In this document: piece by piece, positions 13,394-32,937 of the stretch
Position numbering within the stretch: position 1 is the first letter of the stretch
How the letters are laid out: each line of letters begins with the position of its first letter
Position numbers and translations under genes: made by a program
Notes under the pieces: generated by a model
What the model saw: only the letters and a program-made list of their open reading frames with translations
Told to the model about the DNA's origin: nothing
Databases searched by the model: none
Source of the DNA: a virus
Direction: 5' to 3' (one strand)
DNA length: 33,905 nt
IMG/VR virus record: IMGVR_UViG_3300010885_059158
Span: 1 to 33,905 of that record

Positions 13394-13984
13394 ATGGCAG
13401 GAATTAAAATAGCAGATCTACCAGGTGTAACTAGCTCTTTAGCAGCTGATGACCGTATACCAATATCAAGAGGTGGTGTGACATACCAGATGGTTGGAGA
13501 GTTGTTTATACCAACAGGTACTATTATAGCCTTTGCATCAGATTCGGTTACCCCGCCAGGGGGTTGGCTTTACTGTGATGGTGCTCCATATAGTACAACA
13601 GCGTTTAGTCGTTTAAACGGTGTTATTGGTACAAAATTTAATGTAACTAATCCCGGAACAGGACTCTTTAGAGTACCGGATTTAAGAGGTCGGTTTATAC
13701 GAGGTTATGCGACGGTGGCAGCTGGAGGAATTGCTACTGCTGCTTTTGGAGCTCAACAAGATGATGCATTTCAAGGTCATTACCACTCGGCCTCAACCAC
13801 CGGATACACGGCAAACGGTGAAGGAGGAACGGGAACGGGGTCAGCAAACAGCCGTTTATCTGGCGGCTTAGCTCCAAATACTACTGTTACTTCGCCTACC
13901 ACGGATGGAACAAACGGAACCCCTCGAACAGCGTCAGAAACACGACCTAGAAATATAGCTGTATATTATTATATAAAGTATTAA
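13394..13984 (+). CDS. Tail collar-domain fibre protein, copy 1
   Basis: 196 residues. An N-terminal segment (GIKIADLPGVTSSLAADDRI) shared with copy 2 is probably the virion attachment part. The Phage Tail Collar domain core follows: GWLYCDGAPYST, then FRVPDLRGRFIRGY around residues 94-107. The C-terminal part is Gly/Thr/Ser-rich with a histidine motif (GHYHSAS) and ends RPRNIAVYYYIKY, as in short-tail-fibre-like proteins. It is followed after 8 nt by a tail-fibre assembly chaperone. The pair is duplicated immediately downstream, so this is one of two alternative or combined receptor-binding tips. Confidence 0.85.
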   Translation: MAGIKIADLPGVTSSLAADDRIPISRGGVTYQMVGELFIPTGTIIAFASDSVTPPGGWLYCDGAPYSTTAFSRLNGVIGTKFNVTNPGTGLFRVPDLRGRFIRGYATVAAGGIATAAFGAQQDDAFQGHYHSASTTGYTANGEGGTGTGSANSRLSGGLAPNTTVTSPTTDGTNGTPRTASETRPRNIAVYYYIKY

Positions 13985-13992
13985 ATAAAAAT

Positions 13993-14412
13993 ATGAATGT
14001 ATATAGCTACGATCCAGATACTAAGATTTTTACAGGTATTACTAAAGCTAATGAATCCCCTCTAGAACCAGGTGTTTATGCTATTCCGTTGTGGGCAACA
14101 GATGTAGCGCCCCCGGAAGTACCTGTAGGTAGTTTTGTTTGGTGGAATGAAACAAGTTGGATTATTGAAGCAATTCCTCCAACTCCAACCCCGACTCCAA
14201 CCCCGACTCCAACCCCTTTACCTCTTCCAATTACTTGGAATGATATTAGAGCTCAAAGAAACAACCTTCTCTTTTTATCTGATTGGACACAATTTACAGA
14301 CGTTAATTTAGCAAATAAACAGGAATGGGCTACCTATCGTCAGTCACTTCGAGATATTCCACAAAATGTTGGAGCACCGGAAGACGTTGTATGGCCTCAG
14401 GAGCCTGTATAA
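13993..14412 (+). CDS. Tail fibre assembly chaperone, copy 1
   Basis: 139 residues. The C-terminal half matches the phage tail assembly chaperone pattern: RAQRNNLLFLSDWTQFTD, then EWATYRQSLRDIPQN and a final WPQEP. The N-terminal half (about 1-60) looks like the small beta domain that recognises a fibre tip. The two are joined by a pure (PT)n linker of about 14 residues encoded by a 12-bp repeat around 14178-14218. It lies 8 nt after collar fibre copy 1, its likely client. Function as folding/trimerisation chaperone follows from the family; the Pro-Thr linker is unusual. Confidence 0.8.
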   Translation: MNVYSYDPDTKIFTGITKANESPLEPGVYAIPLWATDVAPPEVPVGSFVWWNETSWIIEAIPPTPTPTPTPTPTPLPLPITWNDIRAQRNNLLFLSDWTQFTDVNLANKQEWATYRQSLRDIPQNVGAPEDVVWPQEPV

Positions 14413-14426
14413 GTATATAAAATAAT

Positions 14427-15068
14427 ATGGGTATTAGAATATCAGAATTACCAGCACCTGCTACAACATCACTTCAATCAAGTGATTTAATACCTATTGT
14501 TCGTAGCGGTACTACATATAAATTACTAGGTTCCGGGGTAGCAGTACCAGTAGGTACAGTAATAACTTTTGCCGGAACCGGTGTACCAGACGGTGGATGG
14601 ATACTTTGTAATGGTGCTGAGTTAAACGCTACAACTAGTCCAGAATACACTAACTTATATAATGCTATCGTTACAACATACGGAGGCACCGGCTCTTCTA
14701 AATTTAACGTACCGGATCTTCAAGGTATTTTTATTCGCGGATCCGGTACAAGTAACACATATAAAAACGCTGCCGGTTCTTTTTTAGCCGGTGGAAACTT
14801 AGCTTCTACTTCTGTTGATGCTTATCGAAATCATGGTCATGCTCATAATATTGGCGTTAGTATTAACTCCGCAAACACTACCGCCAATACCTTTAGCTCC
14901 AAAACCTTTGCAGGACAAGGCAGTAATTACGCACCAGCTGAAGTTAATAAAGGTACTGGTACTGTTGCTGTAGGTGCATCGATCACTGGAAGTATTTCAG
15001 ATAGTACAACAGGTGGTACAGAAACAAAGCCTGCTAGCATTTCATTAAAATTTTACATAAAATACTAA
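14427..15068 (+). CDS. Tail collar-domain fibre protein, copy 2
   Basis: 213 residues, paralogous to copy 1. The N-terminus GIRISELPAPATTSLQSSDL aligns with copy 1. The collar core follows: GGWILCNGAELN and FNVPDLQGIFIRGSG. The distal part differs in sequence and has a different His motif (NHGHAHN), but the end KPASISLKFYIKY keeps the family close. Conserved attachment and closing segments with divergent middles fit diversification of receptor binding. Its own chaperone begins one base after the stop. Confidence 0.85.
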   Translation: MGIRISELPAPATTSLQSSDLIPIVRSGTTYKLLGSGVAVPVGTVITFAGTGVPDGGWILCNGAELNATTSPEYTNLYNAIVTTYGGTGSSKFNVPDLQGIFIRGSGTSNTYKNAAGSFLAGGNLASTSVDAYRNHGHAHNIGVSINSANTTANTFSSKTFAGQGSNYAPAEVNKGTGTVAVGASITGSISDSTTGGTETKPASISLKFYIKY

Positions 15069-15069
15069 C

Positions 15070-15513
15070 ATGACCGGATACTGCTACGATAAAGATACAG
15101 GTATATATCTCTGGGAAACTGATACTATTCAGGAATTACCTACTAATTCAGGTACCTATTTACTTCCAACGAACGTAACATTAGTTCCTCCTCCAGAAAT
15201 ACCTGCGGGTAGTTTTGCACGGTGGAACGGTAGTGGTTGGGGTATTGAAACTCTTCCTCCAACTCCTTCTTCAACCCCGGTTCCTTTACCGACCCCAACT
15301 CCAACACCTTTACCAGTACCTGTCCCGGAAACTATTACCTGGGAAACAGTTAGGACCGATAGAGATAACCGTCTAGGTCTTTCTGATTGGACACAATTAC
15401 CGGATAGTAATGTAAATAAAGAGGTTTGGGCTACTTACCGTCAGGCACTTAGAGATGTACCTCAGAATAATAGTGACCCAGAAAATATAAACTGGCCTAC
15501 AAAACCTCAATAA
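15070..15513 (+). CDS. Tail fibre assembly chaperone, copy 2
   Basis: 147 residues, paralogous to copy 1: RTDRDNRLGLSDWTQLPD, EVWATYRQALRDVPQN and WPTKP at the C-terminus; an N-terminal CYDKDTGIYLWETD segment parallel to SYDPDTKIFTGITK of copy 1; and a Pro-rich linker (PPTPSSTPVPLPTPTPTPLP) in the middle. It begins one base after the stop of collar copy 2, its presumed client. The stop codon overlaps an AATAAATA octamer at 15509-15516, 43 nt before queC. Confidence 0.8.
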   Translation: MTGYCYDKDTGIYLWETDTIQELPTNSGTYLLPTNVTLVPPPEIPAGSFARWNGSGWGIETLPPTPSSTPVPLPTPTPTPLPVPVPETITWETVRTDRDNRLGLSDWTQLPDSNVNKEVWATYRQALRDVPQNNSDPENINWPTKPQ

Positions 15514-15553: not shown

Positions 15554-16270
15554 ATGTCAAAAGCCGTTGTTGTATTTTCTGGTGGTTTAGATTCTACTGT
15601 TCTTCTTGAACATTGTATTAAAAATCATGATGAAGTTTATGCTTTAACGTTTGATTATAATCAGCGTCATAAGAAAGAGATTAATGTTGCTGAAGCTTAT
15701 ATATACAATCATTATAGTTATCATCACTCTAAAGTAAAAGAGCATAGAGTTATTGATTTAAGCTTCTTTAGAAATCTAGCACCTACTTCTGCTCTTACAT
15801 CAAACGATATTGATGTACCGAAGATGAAAGATGTAATTGGAGAAGCACAAACTTCTGCTTACGTTGCTAATAGAAATATGATGTTCCTATCTATTGCTTG
15901 TTCTTATGCTGAAGCAGTAAATGCTACTGAAGTTTATTACGGAGCAGTAGCTGTTGATAATCTTAGCGGTTTTTGGGATTGTACAAGTCCGTTTATAGAA
16001 GGTATTAATAACGTATTAGCTCTTAATCGATTAAATCGAATTCAAATACAAGCTCCTTTACTTTTTAAAACTAAAAAAGAGATTGTAGAAATGGGTATAG
16101 AATTAGGTGTTCAATTTGAAAAAACTTGGTCCTGTTATAATGGTAGAGAAGTAAGTTGTGGGGAATGCCCGGCATGTTCAAGTCGTATAGCGGGTTTTAA
16201 AAAGTCAAAATATATAGATCCTCTACCTTATACAAAAGATATAGATTGGAAAGATTGTAAAAGTTTGTAA
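15554..16270 (+). CDS. queC: 7-cyano-7-deazaguanine (preQ0) synthase QueC
   Basis: 238 residues, full length for the family. It has the ATP-pyrophosphatase loop FSGGLDST (8-15), the YVANRNMMFLSIA segment (103-115) corresponding to the QueC YVPxRN motif, and a C-terminal zinc site with four cysteines at 194, 202, 205 and 208 (SCYNGREVSCGECPACSSR). QueC converts 7-carboxy-7-deazaguanine to preQ0 with ATP and ammonia. In phages this pathway commonly supplies 7-deazaguanine derivatives for genomic DNA modification that blocks restriction; tRNA queuosine supply is the alternative. No other pathway gene is in this window. It has its own early-type promoter but lies among late fibre genes, which suggests later insertion. 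Confidence 0.95.
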   Translation: MSKAVVVFSGGLDSTVLLEHCIKNHDEVYALTFDYNQRHKKEINVAEAYIYNHYSYHHSKVKEHRVIDLSFFRNLAPTSALTSNDIDVPKMKDVIGEAQTSAYVANRNMMFLSIACSYAEAVNATEVYYGAVAVDNLSGFWDCTSPFIEGINNVLALNRLNRIQIQAPLLFKTKKEIVEMGIELGVQFEKTWSCYNGREVSCGECPACSSRIAGFKKSKYIDPLPYTKDIDWKDCKSL

Positions 16271-23209: not shown

Positions 23210-25024
23210 ATGTTCTGGTCTAATGCCATCATACCTAAAAAGTATACACTAACAAATAATCTTACTGCTTTTTATAACTTTGATGGTAGCTTAAATGCTA
23301 GTAATGGTGTTAATCTTACGTTAATAGATCCCGCTCTTTATGCCAAATGGACTACAAAAGGTAAAATAATATCAGCTTTATATTTACCTCTTTCATCAAG
23401 TTATTATCAAGGTGTTTATAACTCTACAAATCTTTGGACATTAACTGGTGAGCCTGGAACAAACTTTACTATACCTAGTTTTAGTGTGTCGTTTTTTTAT
23501 CAAACCACTTCTATACAGCCAAGTTTACAAAATGTAAGAAACGCAAACCGTATTTTATTTGGATCAAAATACGGATCAATGTCTTTTTCTGTATTTTTAA
23601 GCCCGAAATTGGAGTTTGCTTGTCATATAGGAAATGAAGTTACTGGAGGATATAATTATTATTCAGAAACTGCTTCGTCAGTTTATGGTTATTACACTGG
23701 AACAACTCTCTATACAGCCGTTACTGCTTTAACAGGTGATTGGAATCACGTTGCCGTAACCCATAGTCGAGGTACACATACCTTAAAGATGTATATAAAC
23801 GGTAATTTAGAAGGTTCAATAAAAGGTACATATTCCCCCACTGGAGGAACAAGTGGTAGTGTAGCTCGTACCGATTTTCCGGGGTATTCAGTTGGAGGCT
23901 CTTCAACTGGAGGAGGAACCGAAAACGGACAGACTGGATTCTTTGATGCATTAGGTATATGGCAAAGAGAATTAGCTGATAGAGAAATTAGTACCCTCTA
24001 TAATAGTGGTAGCGGAAGACAGTTCCCTTCATACGGTGATGTGTGGACTAATAAAGATTCTACTAGAGCATGGAGCGGTATAGCAATGTCTTCAGATGGA
24101 TCAAGACAAACGGCAGTTGTAAATGGAGGCAATATCTATGTTTCTTCTGATTACGGTGATACATGGACCCCGGTTGTGGTAAGTAACTCTAATAATGTAT
24201 GGAGAGGTATAGCAATGTCCTCGGACGGATCAATACAAACAGCAGTTTCGTACGGGCATTACACCCCCGCATCTTCTAAACCTCCTCCTGGAACTCCTGC
24301 TATTCTAGGAGGTGCAGTATATGTTTCTACCGATTACGGTAATACATGGAGAGCTGTTACATCAACCACCAGCGGTTCTAGGACTTACTTTACTAGTGTA
24401 GCAATGTCTTCAGACGGACGCATACAGACAGTTTGTACTGATGATAGTAATGAAGTGTTTATTTCTACCGATTACGGTAATACATGGAATCCGATCTCGG
24501 GAAATGGCTTCTCTGGTGGAACTGGTGCTAAACTTTTAGCAATGTCTTCAGACGGACGCATACATTTAGGTACTGGCCACGCGTACACAAATATTTCTTA
24601 CGATTACGGTAATACATGGGTCCAACTTTATCAGGTAGGTTGGCCACAAAATAAAATTGCACCTAATGGTCGGTCAGTAGCAATGTCATCAACCGGTAAA
24701 ATACAAGCAATAATTTCACTAAATACTAATCTAATATTTATTTCTACTGATTTTGGAGTAACGTGGTATGACAAAACATCGACTTCCCAAGTATTTAATA
24801 ATATAGCAATGTCATCAGATGGACGTATAATGACGGCTACAACAACTGGTGGTCAAATATATATTTCTTACGATTACGGTAATAATTGGGGTGCTAGAGC
24901 AGGAGTAGCAAATTGGAATAGAATAGCAATGTCTTCAGACGGTAGTAAGCAAACAGCAAGTCGATCTGATAGTTCATTAGCTACTTCTAATTTTAATTTA
25001 GATCCTTCTTTGTATATTATTTAA
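23210..25024 (+). CDS. Receptor-binding candidate: LamG lectin-like domain plus Asp-box propeller
   Basis: 604 residues. Residues about 16-265 are a LamG/concanavalin-like domain (LTAFYNFDGSLNASNG, FSVSFFYQTTS, GDWNHVAVTHSRG, LKMYINGNLEGSIKG, FDALGIWQRELADREI). Residues about 270-595 hold six Asp-box motifs of the S-x-D-x-G-x-x-W type (SSDYGDTW, STDYGNTW twice, SYDYGNTW, STDFGVTW, SYDYGNNW), each set with an AMSSDG segment that occurs up to seven times, as in six- or seven-bladed BNR/sialidase-like propellers. Sialidase catalytic residues are not evident, so sugar binding is likelier than hydrolysis. Last gene of the adhesin region, 9 nt after the 811-aa fibre. Confidence 0.78.
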   Translation: MFWSNAIIPKKYTLTNNLTAFYNFDGSLNASNGVNLTLIDPALYAKWTTKGKIISALYLPLSSSYYQGVYNSTNLWTLTGEPGTNFTIPSFSVSFFYQTTSIQPSLQNVRNANRILFGSKYGSMSFSVFLSPKLEFACHIGNEVTGGYNYYSETASSVYGYYTGTTLYTAVTALTGDWNHVAVTHSRGTHTLKMYINGNLEGSIKGTYSPTGGTSGSVARTDFPGYSVGGSSTGGGTENGQTGFFDALGIWQRELADREISTLYNSGSGRQFPSYGDVWTNKDSTRAWSGIAMSSDGSRQTAVVNGGNIYVSSDYGDTWTPVVVSNSNNVWRGIAMSSDGSIQTAVSYGHYTPASSKPPPGTPAILGGAVYVSTDYGNTWRAVTSTTSGSRTYFTSVAMSSDGRIQTVCTDDSNEVFISTDYGNTWNPISGNGFSGGTGAKLLAMSSDGRIHLGTGHAYTNISYDYGNTWVQLYQVGWPQNKIAPNGRSVAMSSTGKIQAIISLNTNLIFISTDFGVTWYDKTSTSQVFNNIAMSSDGRIMTATTTGGQIYISYDYGNNWGARAGVANWNRIAMSSDGSKQTASRSDSSLATSNFNLDPSLYII

Positions 25025-29397: not shown

Positions 29398-29844
29398 TTA
29401 AAAGTATAAAGATTCCTCTTCGTAAGTAAGTTGTATAACTTCTATACCTAAGTCTTTACCAATCTCTATTGGTGAATATTCATCGCTAAATTTATAGCGA
29501 GTACTAAATACAACTTTCTTAATTCCATAAGCAGCAAGCGATTTCAAGCAATCGTTACACGGTGAGTGGGTTATAGCAGCAAGATAGCACTCATTTGGCT
29601 TTATCATTCTTAAAGCGTTTACTTCTGCGTGAATAACACGCTTGTGTTTTTCCTCTCTATTATTCCATTCTATTTGAACCCCAGCAGGTGCTCCATTATA
29701 ACCAATACTAGCTATAGTATGATCGTGACGTAAGAGACAGCATCCTACTTTTGTTCTAGGGTCTTCAGAACGAAGGGCTGCAACTTCAGCTAAACGGAGA
29801 GCGTACTCTTCCCAGGATATTCTATTTGTTTGTATATGTTCCAT
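29398..29844 (-). CDS. dCMP deaminase
   Basis: 148 residues with a full set of deoxycytidylate deaminase motifs: YNGAPAG (49-55) for nucleotide binding, HAEVNA (72-77) giving the zinc His and catalytic Glu, and PCNDC (95-99) giving the two zinc cysteines. It converts dCMP to dUMP for thymidylate synthesis, as T4 cd does. It is shorter than T4 cd (193 residues). Its start overlaps the end of the upstream deaminase-like gene by 23 bases, and it abuts the stop of the plus-strand acidic gene with no spacer. Confidence 0.93.
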   Translation of the reverse strand: MEHIQTNRISWEEYALRLAEVAALRSEDPRTKVGCCLLRHDHTIASIGYNGAPAGVQIEWNNREEKHKRVIHAEVNALRMIKPNECYLAAITHSPCNDCLKSLAAYGIKKVVFSTRYKFSDEYSPIEIGKDLGIEVIQLTYEEESLYF

Positions 29845-30232
29845 TATTAGTTGACCAAATAATCTCTTTAAAGCTATGATATTTAAGAAGACTGTTGCAA
29901 CTTTGACAGGGTTTGGCTAAAGCTACTTTATCGTTTCTATCATAACGAATGTTAATGAGTGTACACTTCTTTGTATCAATGTTCGTTAGACGTTTAAGTT
30001 TGAGAATAGCATTAAGTTCATAGCACGTTTGTTTTTGTTCAGAGTAATCTTCACCTGTTACTTTTGATATCTTACGATTAATAAGATTGAGGGGATGGGT
30101 TTTACTACTATTTGTCCCGGTCGATATCAGGCGTCCCTTATAGATAATAAAAGAAAAGTGTCGGCACCGTCTATCGGAGTTATACTCAACGAGAGACTGA
30201 GCTAGTTCCTCAAGTCTTTTATATTTCTTCAT
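29822..30232 (-). CDS. Second cytidine-deaminase-fold protein with CxE zinc motif
   Basis: 136 residues. FSFIIYKGRLISTGTN and KTHPLN match the N-terminal sheet of deaminases. The zinc motif is CYELNA (70-75), with Cys where dCMP deaminases have His, followed by KPCQSC (108-112). A Cys ligand is the arrangement of CDA-type cytidine deaminases. The strand LINIRYDRNDKVALAKPC precedes the second half motif as in the family. Substrate (free nucleoside, nucleotide or nucleic acid) is unknown. It overlaps the dCMP deaminase gene by 23 bases, so the two are co-expressed. Confidence 0.7.
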   Translation of the reverse strand: MKKYKRLEELAQSLVEYNSDRRCRHFSFIIYKGRLISTGTNSSKTHPLNLINRKISKVTGEDYSEQKQTCYELNAILKLKRLTNIDTKKCTLINIRYDRNDKVALAKPCQSCNSLLKYHSFKEIIWSTNNGTYTNK

Positions 30233-30588: not shown

Positions 30589-30804
30589 ATGTATACATCA
30601 CCTGTTCTTATAGCTACATCAGGTGCCTCGGTTACATATAACACTAATATAGCTGTTACTTTAATTTTAGCTTATAATAGTTTAATTAAAAAATATAAAC
30701 TTGAATTGTCAGAATTTAAAGCTAAGACTAAGAAAATAAAAAAAGAAAAAATTAATCTTTTAACGAATTATTCGGACGTTTCTTTTCAAAAAAAAGATAA
30801 ATAA
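30589..30804 (+). CDS. Small protein sharing an N-terminus with the downstream LCIB-like protein
   Basis: 71 residues. The first 25 (MYTSPVLIATSGASVTYNTN, then IAVT) align with the start of the next gene (MSLTPILQPSPGTPPTYNVG, then MAET): S/T-P-x-L, SG or PG, TYN, then A-x-T. The rest is a Lys-rich helical tail (KAKTKKIKKEKINLL). It may be a truncated or stand-alone version of a localisation or virion-attachment module. It ends 8 nt before the LCIB-like gene, and its stop region contains that gene's late promoter. Confidence 0.55.
   Translation: MYTSPVLIATSGASVTYNTNIAVTLILAYNSLIKKYKLELSEFKAKTKKIKKEKINLLTNYSDVSFQKKDK
30796..30803 (+). promoter_or_regulatory. Late promoter (GATAAATA)
   Basis: 17 nt before the ATG at 30813. 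A second octamer (AATAAATA, 30800-30807) overlaps it. Confidence 0.5.
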
Positions 30805-30812
30805 ATAAGAAC

Positions 30813-32033
30813 ATGTCTTTAACTCCTATATTACAACCTAGCCCTGGTACCCCTCCGACCTACAATGTAGGTATGGCAGAAACATTTTCTTGGATACCAG
30901 TTGATGGTGCGCCTAGGTCAATTTTTGCCAGAGCGAGTTATTTGGTTAATCCTCAGGATATTACAGACGCAATTGTTGCTGATGATCCTAATAAAAACGG
31001 ATTCACGTTTGTCGAAGCAAGCAGTTCCGTACAATACGGAAATTATCAAAGTATTAAAGTACTTTCTGCATGTTTATTTTCTGGATTAACTTCACTTAAT
31101 ACAACTGTTGGTAACTTAATCAATTATCAATTACCTCAAAATTTTGAGTTTATCGCAGACATTCGTAGCTTTAAATTAGCTTATGGGTCTGTTTTAGCTT
31201 ACAATTCTGAAAATACCTATTCTACTACTATTAGAAACGTGTATCCAAGTGCAATCTTAGCAGAAACTTTTGGTGCTAGATCAATGAGTTTTATACAATC
31301 TCAATTTGGATACACTCCAGACAATATTGTTATTGCTGAGTCTATCTGTTCGGACGATGTCAATGCTCCTATATTTAGCGGTAACATAGGGCAATTTCCA
31401 AACTCAATGACATCTTACCTCGGGCCTTTCATGGCAGGAGGTCTTGCAGGATATCCTCATACCGGTGTTGTTGGATTAGTAGCCTGGATAAGCCATGCTA
31501 CAACAGCTACAAACGGTGCTCTCTTCTTATACTCTGCCCCTCACATCGGTATTACTTTTGATGGAGCTGTTGGCTTCATGAAGAGAAGAGGTCAGAATGG
31601 AACTCTTTCAACCACTTGCGGTGCTGTTGGTGCTGCTATTTCTTCAGTTGTTGCTCCTAATGCAGTAGCTCCTACAGTAAGCAATTATAGTTTACTCAAT
31701 GGAAGTAATGCTATTAACGATTATCAACAATTTACATTGACTAGTATTCTTTGGAACAAAAGAAATATACTCCTCGGTACAGTTGATTCCGATAGAATGA
31801 GAGTGGCAACAGATATAATTAGAGCAGCTTCTTTAGATTGGATTATGACCAATCTTCCTACTGCTTATGCTCTAGCTGGTTCAACTGTAGATGTTTTCGT
31901 ATGCACTGGTACATTTATTAATGCTGATGACGGTTATGATGCATATATAGATACAAATACTTTTGCAAAATATAATGGAACTTCTGGATGGACAGATTAT
32001 TCCTCTATATTCACAAACACTTTAGCTCGATAA
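30813..32033 (+). CDS. LCIB-type (beta/theta) carbonic anhydrase homologue, copy 1, with N-terminal extension
   Basis: 406 residues. Residues about 145-300 carry the pattern I associate with the limiting-CO2-inducible LCIB/LCIC family: ESICSDDVNAP (176-186) with a beta-CA-like Cys-x-Asp (C179, D181), LGPFMAGGLAGYPHTGVVGL (203-222), ISHA (H228), APHIGI (H244), KRRGQ (R258, R259) and STTCGA (C269). In characterised LCIB proteins zinc is held by Cys, His and Cys, corresponding to C179, H244 and C269. The reaction would be CO2/bicarbonate interconversion. The first 130 residues are a unique beta-rich extension, and the end (GTFINADDGYDAY, then KYNGTSGWTDYS) resembles virion-protein tags. Late promoter just upstream. 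Activity unproven. Confidence 0.7.
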   Translation: MSLTPILQPSPGTPPTYNVGMAETFSWIPVDGAPRSIFARASYLVNPQDITDAIVADDPNKNGFTFVEASSSVQYGNYQSIKVLSACLFSGLTSLNTTVGNLINYQLPQNFEFIADIRSFKLAYGSVLAYNSENTYSTTIRNVYPSAILAETFGARSMSFIQSQFGYTPDNIVIAESICSDDVNAPIFSGNIGQFPNSMTSYLGPFMAGGLAGYPHTGVVGLVAWISHATTATNGALFLYSAPHIGITFDGAVGFMKRRGQNGTLSTTCGAVGAAISSVVAPNAVAPTVSNYSLLNGSNAINDYQQFTLTSILWNKRNILLGTVDSDRMRVATDIIRAASLDWIMTNLPTAYALAGSTVDVFVCTGTFINADDGYDAYIDTNTFAKYNGTSGWTDYSSIFTNTLAR

Positions 32034-32037
32034 TTTT

Positions 32038-32937
32038 ATGCCAAATCCCTCAACATACACAACAAAAGTATCCTCTATAAATTATAGTTGGGGTCCAGGA
32101 AACTCCGCTACTACTTTTAATCTTGCATCTGCAATCACTGCTGAAAGCTTTGGCACTAGGGCAGCAACCCTTATTAGTAACGTTTCTGGATATAATACAA
32201 AGCAAGTTTTAATGGCACAATCTATATGTGCAGATGATGTAAATGCTCCAATATACCCAAATAATAATATTGGACAACAACCTGTTTCACTTCAATCATT
32301 CTTAGGTCCCTTCATTCAGGGTGGAATTGGTGGTTATCCATTTGCAGGACCTACAGGGTTATTTGCTTGGGCAAGTCACATAACAACAGGTGGAGCTTTA
32401 TTCCTCAATGTCAATACTCACCTTGGTGTACCGCTTAGTGGTGATGCTGGTTATATCAGAAGAAGAGGTCAGGGTGGTTCTCTTTCTAATACTTGTGGAG
32501 CAGTTGGTGTAGCTGTCAGTTATGTAGCGTTAAGCTCTAATACTACAGCCCCAGTTAGTGCTGATTATATTAATACTTTTGGCTTCCAGCAATGGATGCT
32601 AACAAATACAGTTTGGTCCGCAAGACCGTATTTAACTGCTGCTAATATTAATAATATTACTCCAATCAATACAACCGCTGCTCCAACTAGTGCACAAATG
32701 ATTGTAGCTACTAAAACAATTCTTAATGCTGCTTCTGCTGCTATAGAACAAATTCTCCCGATAGCATATAGTTCTTATTTTGGAGCTCTAACAAGTACTC
32801 CAGTATTTGTAAGTTATGGTACATTCATCAACGTTGATGATGGTTATACAGCTTATGTAAATGTTGACGGCTTTAAGAGATATAATGGAGCCGGCTGGAG
32901 AGATTTAACTTCTCAGTTTAGTACTATAACTGGTTAA
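32038..32937 (+). CDS. LCIB-type carbonic anhydrase homologue, copy 2
   Basis: 299 residues, paralogous to copy 1 without its long N-terminal extension. Conserved: AQSICADDVNAP (60-71; C64, D66), LGPFIQGGIGGYPFAGPTGL (89-108), ASHI (H114), NTHLGV (H128), RRRGQ (141-145) and SNTCGA (C153). The putative zinc ligands Cys, His, Cys and the Asp are intact. It also keeps the C-terminal element YGTFINVDDGYTAY, then RYNGAGWRDL, found in copy 1. It starts 4 bases after the stop of copy 1, with no Shine-Dalgarno, so the pair is one transcript and may form a heteromer, as LCIB and LCIC do in Chlamydomonas (comparison from general knowledge). Confidence 0.7.
   Translation: MPNPSTYTTKVSSINYSWGPGNSATTFNLASAITAESFGTRAATLISNVSGYNTKQVLMAQSICADDVNAPIYPNNNIGQQPVSLQSFLGPFIQGGIGGYPFAGPTGLFAWASHITTGGALFLNVNTHLGVPLSGDAGYIRRRGQGGSLSNTCGAVGVAVSYVALSSNTTAPVSADYINTFGFQQWMLTNTVWSARPYLTAANINNITPINTTAAPTSAQMIVATKTILNAASAAIEQILPIAYSSYFGALTSTPVFVSYGTFINVDDGYTAYVNVDGFKRYNGAGWRDLTSQFSTITG

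Follow-up and report, generated by a model that had tools for sequence, protein, structure and literature searches.

Enzymes of the LCIB type are parts of algal CO2-concentrating systems. A carbonic-anhydrase-like fold, of the alpha type and non-catalytic, is also found on the vaccinia virus particle as protein D8. The latter has an adhesion role and binds chondroitin sulfate (PMC4256255). Within the LCIB/LCIC family (Pfam PF18599), PtLCIB3 and PtLCIB4 are constitutively active (PMC9614477), yet Chlamydomonas LCIB and LCIC are inactive once purified; LCIC joins LCIB in a mixed oligomer (PMC5876011). The viral carbonic anhydrase found in the literature searched, from a sponge virome, is of the carboxysome-shell type (PMC7863781). 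No published phage LCIB was found in that literature, which takes in few subscription journals and no bioRxiv preprints. A precedent for attachment to a phage particle through a short N-terminal segment comes from crAss001, where the head fibres gp21 and gp29 are bound to the capsid by their N-terminal 38 and 58 residues, respectively (PMC10172136).

The whole stretch of DNA analysed here, referred to as the window, comprises positions 1 to 33,905 (33,905 nucleotides) of IMG/VR record IMGVR_UViG_3300010885_059158, from a virus of bacteria. It encodes two beta-carbonic anhydrases of the LCIB type, which belong to a branch specific to viruses. They share domain, fold and the residue set Cys-Asp-His-His-Arg-Cys with PtLCIB4 (5b5y, 6kfs) and with Chlamydomonas LCIB (5k5w) and LCIC (5b5x). 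The viral members differ from this family in being phage-encoded, in forming a clade separate from the sampled bacterial members and, in most cases, in carrying an N-terminal extension, which one member of the tandem pairs lacks. Cellular LCIBs, from Bacteroidota and a few other bacteria, have the same domain and active-site residues as the viral proteins; nearly all are 244–274 aa long and, unlike most viral LCIBs, have no N-terminal extension.

The tandem LCIB proteins

The first protein (406 aa; 30813..32033, + strand) consists of an N-terminal module followed by an LCIB domain at about residues 136–398 (31218..32006, + strand), as delimited by Pfam, fold and residues. The second (299 aa; 32038..32937, + strand) comprises the domain only, and the gap between the two ORFs is 4 bases. 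The first-pass annotation had proposed two tandem LCIB homologues, and this is borne out by the agreement of Pfam, PDB sequence search and predicted fold. LCIB_C_CA (PF18599) matched the first protein at 1e-31 (110.4 bits, residues 158–384) and the second at 7e-25 (88.0 bits), against a cut-off of 25; both values are far beyond chance. It was the sole Pfam match in either protein at E up to 1, and Pro_CA, the profile of canonical beta-carbonic anhydrases, was not matched. Solved LCIB structures were recovered from the PDB by sequence at 7e-16 and 2e-14 for the first and second proteins, LCIB entries being the only significant matches, and a profile built from the viral relatives found eight LCIB sequences in the PDB, the best at 6.6e-27. 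The AlphaFold models match LCIB over the whole fold, with Z 27.0 and 26.7 to 6kfs and an rmsd of 2.2–2.3 over about 240 residues (242). They also match PtLCIB4 at Z about 27, within a range of Z 20–27 for the LCIB-family fold, and ordinary beta-carbonic anhydrases follow as the next matches at Z 11–12. Residues 1–133 of the first protein are modelled at low confidence.

The motifs that had been listed for the pair are present in both proteins: C179-S-D-D-V-N, GGLAGYP, SH (H228), PHIG (H244), RRGQ (R258) and TTCGA (C269) in the first, and C64-A-D-D-V-N, GGIGGYP, SH (H114), THLG (H128), RRGQ (R142) and NTCGA (C153) in the second. Six key residues in each protein (C179, D181, H228, H244, R258 and C269 in the first; C64, D66, H114, H128, R142 and C153 in the second) align with the conserved residues of the LCIB structures, R258 and R142 being the invariant arginine of RRGQ. 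Going by alignment with the family, the Cys-His-Cys zinc residues were correctly named; we take C179, H244 and C269 to be the zinc ligands, and D181 and R258 to be the catalytic pair. H228 falls at the position mutated in the H88A structure of PtLCIB4, and S180 at the one mutated in S47R. In an alignment of viral and bacterial proteins, each of the 74 distinct viral proteins keeps all six residues, as do 79 of the best 80 bacterial rows; the median pairwise identity among the viral LCIBs is 45 %. The viral residue at the position of PtLCIB4 Ser47 is Ser in 68 proteins and Ala in six. Because purified Chlamydomonas LCIB and LCIC are inactive (PMC5876011), conserved sites are no guarantee of activity; given that PtLCIB3 and PtLCIB4 are active, a working active site in the viral LCIBs is likely.

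The N-termini of the two proteins differ and a C-terminal element, GTFIN..DDGY, is common to both, as had been noted. The suggestion that this element is a virion-protein tag did not hold, since bacterial LCIB proteins end in an IN-x-D stretch with which it aligns; in the first protein it lies inside both the Pfam match (158–384) and the fold alignment, which extends to about residue 397. A separate tag was therefore rejected: the LCIB domain itself ends with this element, and cellular relatives have it too. The late promoters ascribed to the pair are not supported. The T4-type late promoter TATAAATA occurs five times in the window, against eight expected, and not at all near the pair, and sigma-70-like and terminator-like sites are at chance level.

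Relatives in metagenomic phage contigs and in bacteria

A first scan of IMG/VR gave 28 loci; later scanning brought the confirmed stretches to 90, and 80 of these were retained, on contigs of up to 217 kb. The relatives are metagenomic, and about 80 contigs carry them, a count that overstates the number of independent cases because several contigs are near copies; 74 distinct viral proteins were compared. Each of 20 records searched for further copies contained one or two. No LCIB relative was present among 50,697 annotated phage records. Searches of annotated phages with the LCIB pair, its neighbours and the anchors gave no match apart from an insignificant one for the anchors. The viral LCIB branch is apparently large and undescribed.

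Bacterial relatives, taken as the best 80 rows of a scan seeded with viral motifs, are mostly from Bacteroidota, with a few from other bacteria. In a tree of the 74 viral proteins and 78 of these bacterial ones, to which neither algae nor other bacterial branches contributed, the two sets are separated by a branch with SH-aLRT 100. Recent acquisition from a host is unsupported because of this separation from the sampled bacterial proteins.

The window and contigs L001 and L033 have the tandem pair in common. In the tree, the three second members cluster with a support of 99; the first members of the window and L001 also cluster, and that of L033 is nearby. It therefore seems probable from these groupings that the duplication is older than the split of the three phages.

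N-terminal modules and gene neighbourhoods

The N-terminal module of the window (residues 1–131; 30813..31205, + strand), a proposed particle anchor of about 130 aa, is 51 % identical to the module in L001. It also stands alone in contig L193, as a 167-aa protein adjoining tail tube and tail sheath genes. Searches for this module in further fusions led to no contigs beyond L001, L193 and L002, a near copy of L001. A Dps/ferritin-like gene (L193:815-1180, − strand) adjoins the stand-alone module as well. In the window, an ORF of 71 aa (30589..30804, + strand) lies 8 bases upstream of the first LCIB ORF, and its start weakly resembles that of the module (z about 4 against 100 shuffles, over a 24-residue ungapped match); in five relatives the ORF at the same place is clearly module-like.

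More generally, viral LCIBs that occur singly or come first in a pair carry about 48–135 extra N-terminal residues, which fall into several unrelated types. Proteins that come second in a pair are almost without an extension, and the start of the L033 second member is of the same kind. In 40 of the 74 viral LCIBs the extension has matches among phage ORFs other than LCIB (E up to 1e-3), in many cases on the same contig. For one type, LKAYVRYDGSGRVVAGSLILR..KPKVGKW.E, a profile gave 19 distinct non-LCIB proteins, of which some carry poly-Thr linkers, one carries BspA leucine-rich repeats and another a Fib_succ_major domain. Another is LTLR.TKGSALT..EMDGNFEYFTGSY; phage structural proteins presumably often begin in this way. 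Non-LCIB proteins with the same anchors are assumed here to be particle proteins. Located near phage LCIB genes and sharing the LCIB anchor are a BspA leucine-rich repeat protein (L084:6723-7925), a Fib_succ_major protein (L074:10840-11883) and a protein with a poly-Thr linker (L089:1283-2527); a further Fib_succ_major protein is encoded near an LCIB gene at L107:19133-20773.

The LCIB gene lies inside the virion block in three groups of relatives. In the L034 type, represented by seven contigs, it follows the portal gene (phrog_213) by 8–14 bp; in the L044/L046 type it is about 100 bp after a major head protein gene (phrog_138), and contigs of the L053/L057 type have it two to three genes beyond such a gene. 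In 19 contigs it falls within a terminase-portal-MCP block. The MCP of these contigs is similar to the MCPs of Cellulophaga phages phi4:1 and phi17:2, phage csAssE-Sib and Leptolyngbya phage Lbo-JY46, and on this likeness the 19 contigs are taken to be crAss-like. The flanking genes c6 and c16 have homologues in Lbo-JY46, which adjoin each other there without an LCIB gene in between. The LCIB virion blocks also repeatedly contain Dps/ferritin-like genes (phrog_858, 'starvation-inducible'), as at L045:11468-11968, the cluster being present in 27 loci.

The pair in the window, by contrast, is beyond the tail and fibre genes: it is past tape measure-like, collar and tail fibre genes, away from the head genes and near deaminase genes. 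The latter are two overlapping deaminase-type genes at 29398-30232 (− strand), the second a weak match under the Pfam cut-off; a dCMP-deaminase-type cluster near the pair is also present in the L001 and L033 contigs. Elsewhere in the window, two pairs of tail collar and tail assembly chaperone genes form a tandem duplication (13394-15513), a QueC gene (15554-16270; PF06508, 2e-62) is situated between the tail collar/chaperone genes and the tail fibre gene, and the tail fibre genes are followed by a gene for a protein with laminin-G-like and BNR/sortilin-like repeats (23210-25024), which is possibly receptor-binding or glycan-acting.

Possible roles of the phage carbonic anhydrases

Because viral LCIBs are often joined to N-terminal segments that other phage proteins share, a CO2 enzyme may sit outside phage particles. 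Module sharing and gene position make it the simplest account that the carbonic anhydrase domain is one of several domains placed on particles via exchangeable N-terminal anchors. For the window, the N-terminal module of the first protein would dock it on the head or tail, with the carbonic anhydrase domain displayed outside; the domain would bind zinc and interconvert CO2 and bicarbonate, and the module-less second protein might assemble with the first in a mixed oligomer, by analogy with LCIC and LCIB. We favour this combined reading with modest confidence. The wider proposition, that diverse phages, crAss-like ones included, display a catalytically active carbonic anhydrase via interchangeable N-terminal anchors, is put forward more tentatively, as a possibility that falls a little short of probable. 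Carriage on the virion, as raised in the first-pass annotation, is thus plausible through the N-terminal modules common to phage proteins and the portal and capsid gene neighbours, although not through the tag and late promoters on which it had been based.

The proposed plan of a short N-terminal anchor and a displayed C-terminal domain resembles that of crAss001 gp21 and gp29, and the LCIB gene is in the virion block of the phages read as crAss-like. The displayed domain is a different one and there is no detectable sequence similarity between the anchors and gp21 or gp29; homology was accordingly rejected, and the head fibres serve as a precedent, not as demonstrable homologues. This lack of a sequence match to the crAss001 head fibres or to annotated phage records counts against the particle reading, as does the position of the window pair, which is near deaminase genes and not beside head genes.

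The deaminase genes near the pair, present also in L001 and L033, are in keeping with a soluble auxiliary metabolic enzyme made in the infected cell, whose N-terminal extension has no virion role. Such a carbonic anhydrase could supply bicarbonate for carbamoyl phosphate, purine or fatty-acid synthesis, or control pH, and both the intact active site and the absence of an extension from the second protein would fit. Several unrelated types of extension common to non-LCIB phage proteins, and genes positioned beside head genes, would be unexpected for a soluble enzyme, and we consider this explanation unlikely, though worth retaining.

It is still less likely that the domain is a binding fold alone, a non-catalytic adhesin or decoration in the manner of vaccinia D8. 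Neighbouring proteins with the same anchors do bear adhesin-type domains, and the purified Chlamydomonas proteins are inactive (PMC5876011). D8 is of the alpha type, whereas the phage proteins belong to the LCIB beta type and have their site intact. The adhesin use alone that the first-pass annotation had entertained loses ground because all six active-site residues are invariant in the viral proteins; in addition, these have Ser or Ala at the Ser47 position of PtLCIB4, an enzyme described as active (PMC9614477). Chance similarity of motifs in proteins that are not LCIB, for which no supporting point was found, is contradicted by the concordant Pfam, PDB sequence and fold matches and is extremely improbable.

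If the particle-anchored enzyme is real, it would make an inorganic-carbon enzyme a component of the particle, acting at the cell surface or around the particle itself. We know of no particle-borne phage enzyme of inorganic-carbon exchange described earlier. The viral branch provides diverse LCIB domains for asking why some LCIBs are active and others are not, and a widespread branch with its active site intact, fused to phage surface-type modules, would represent a new use of carbonic anhydrase.
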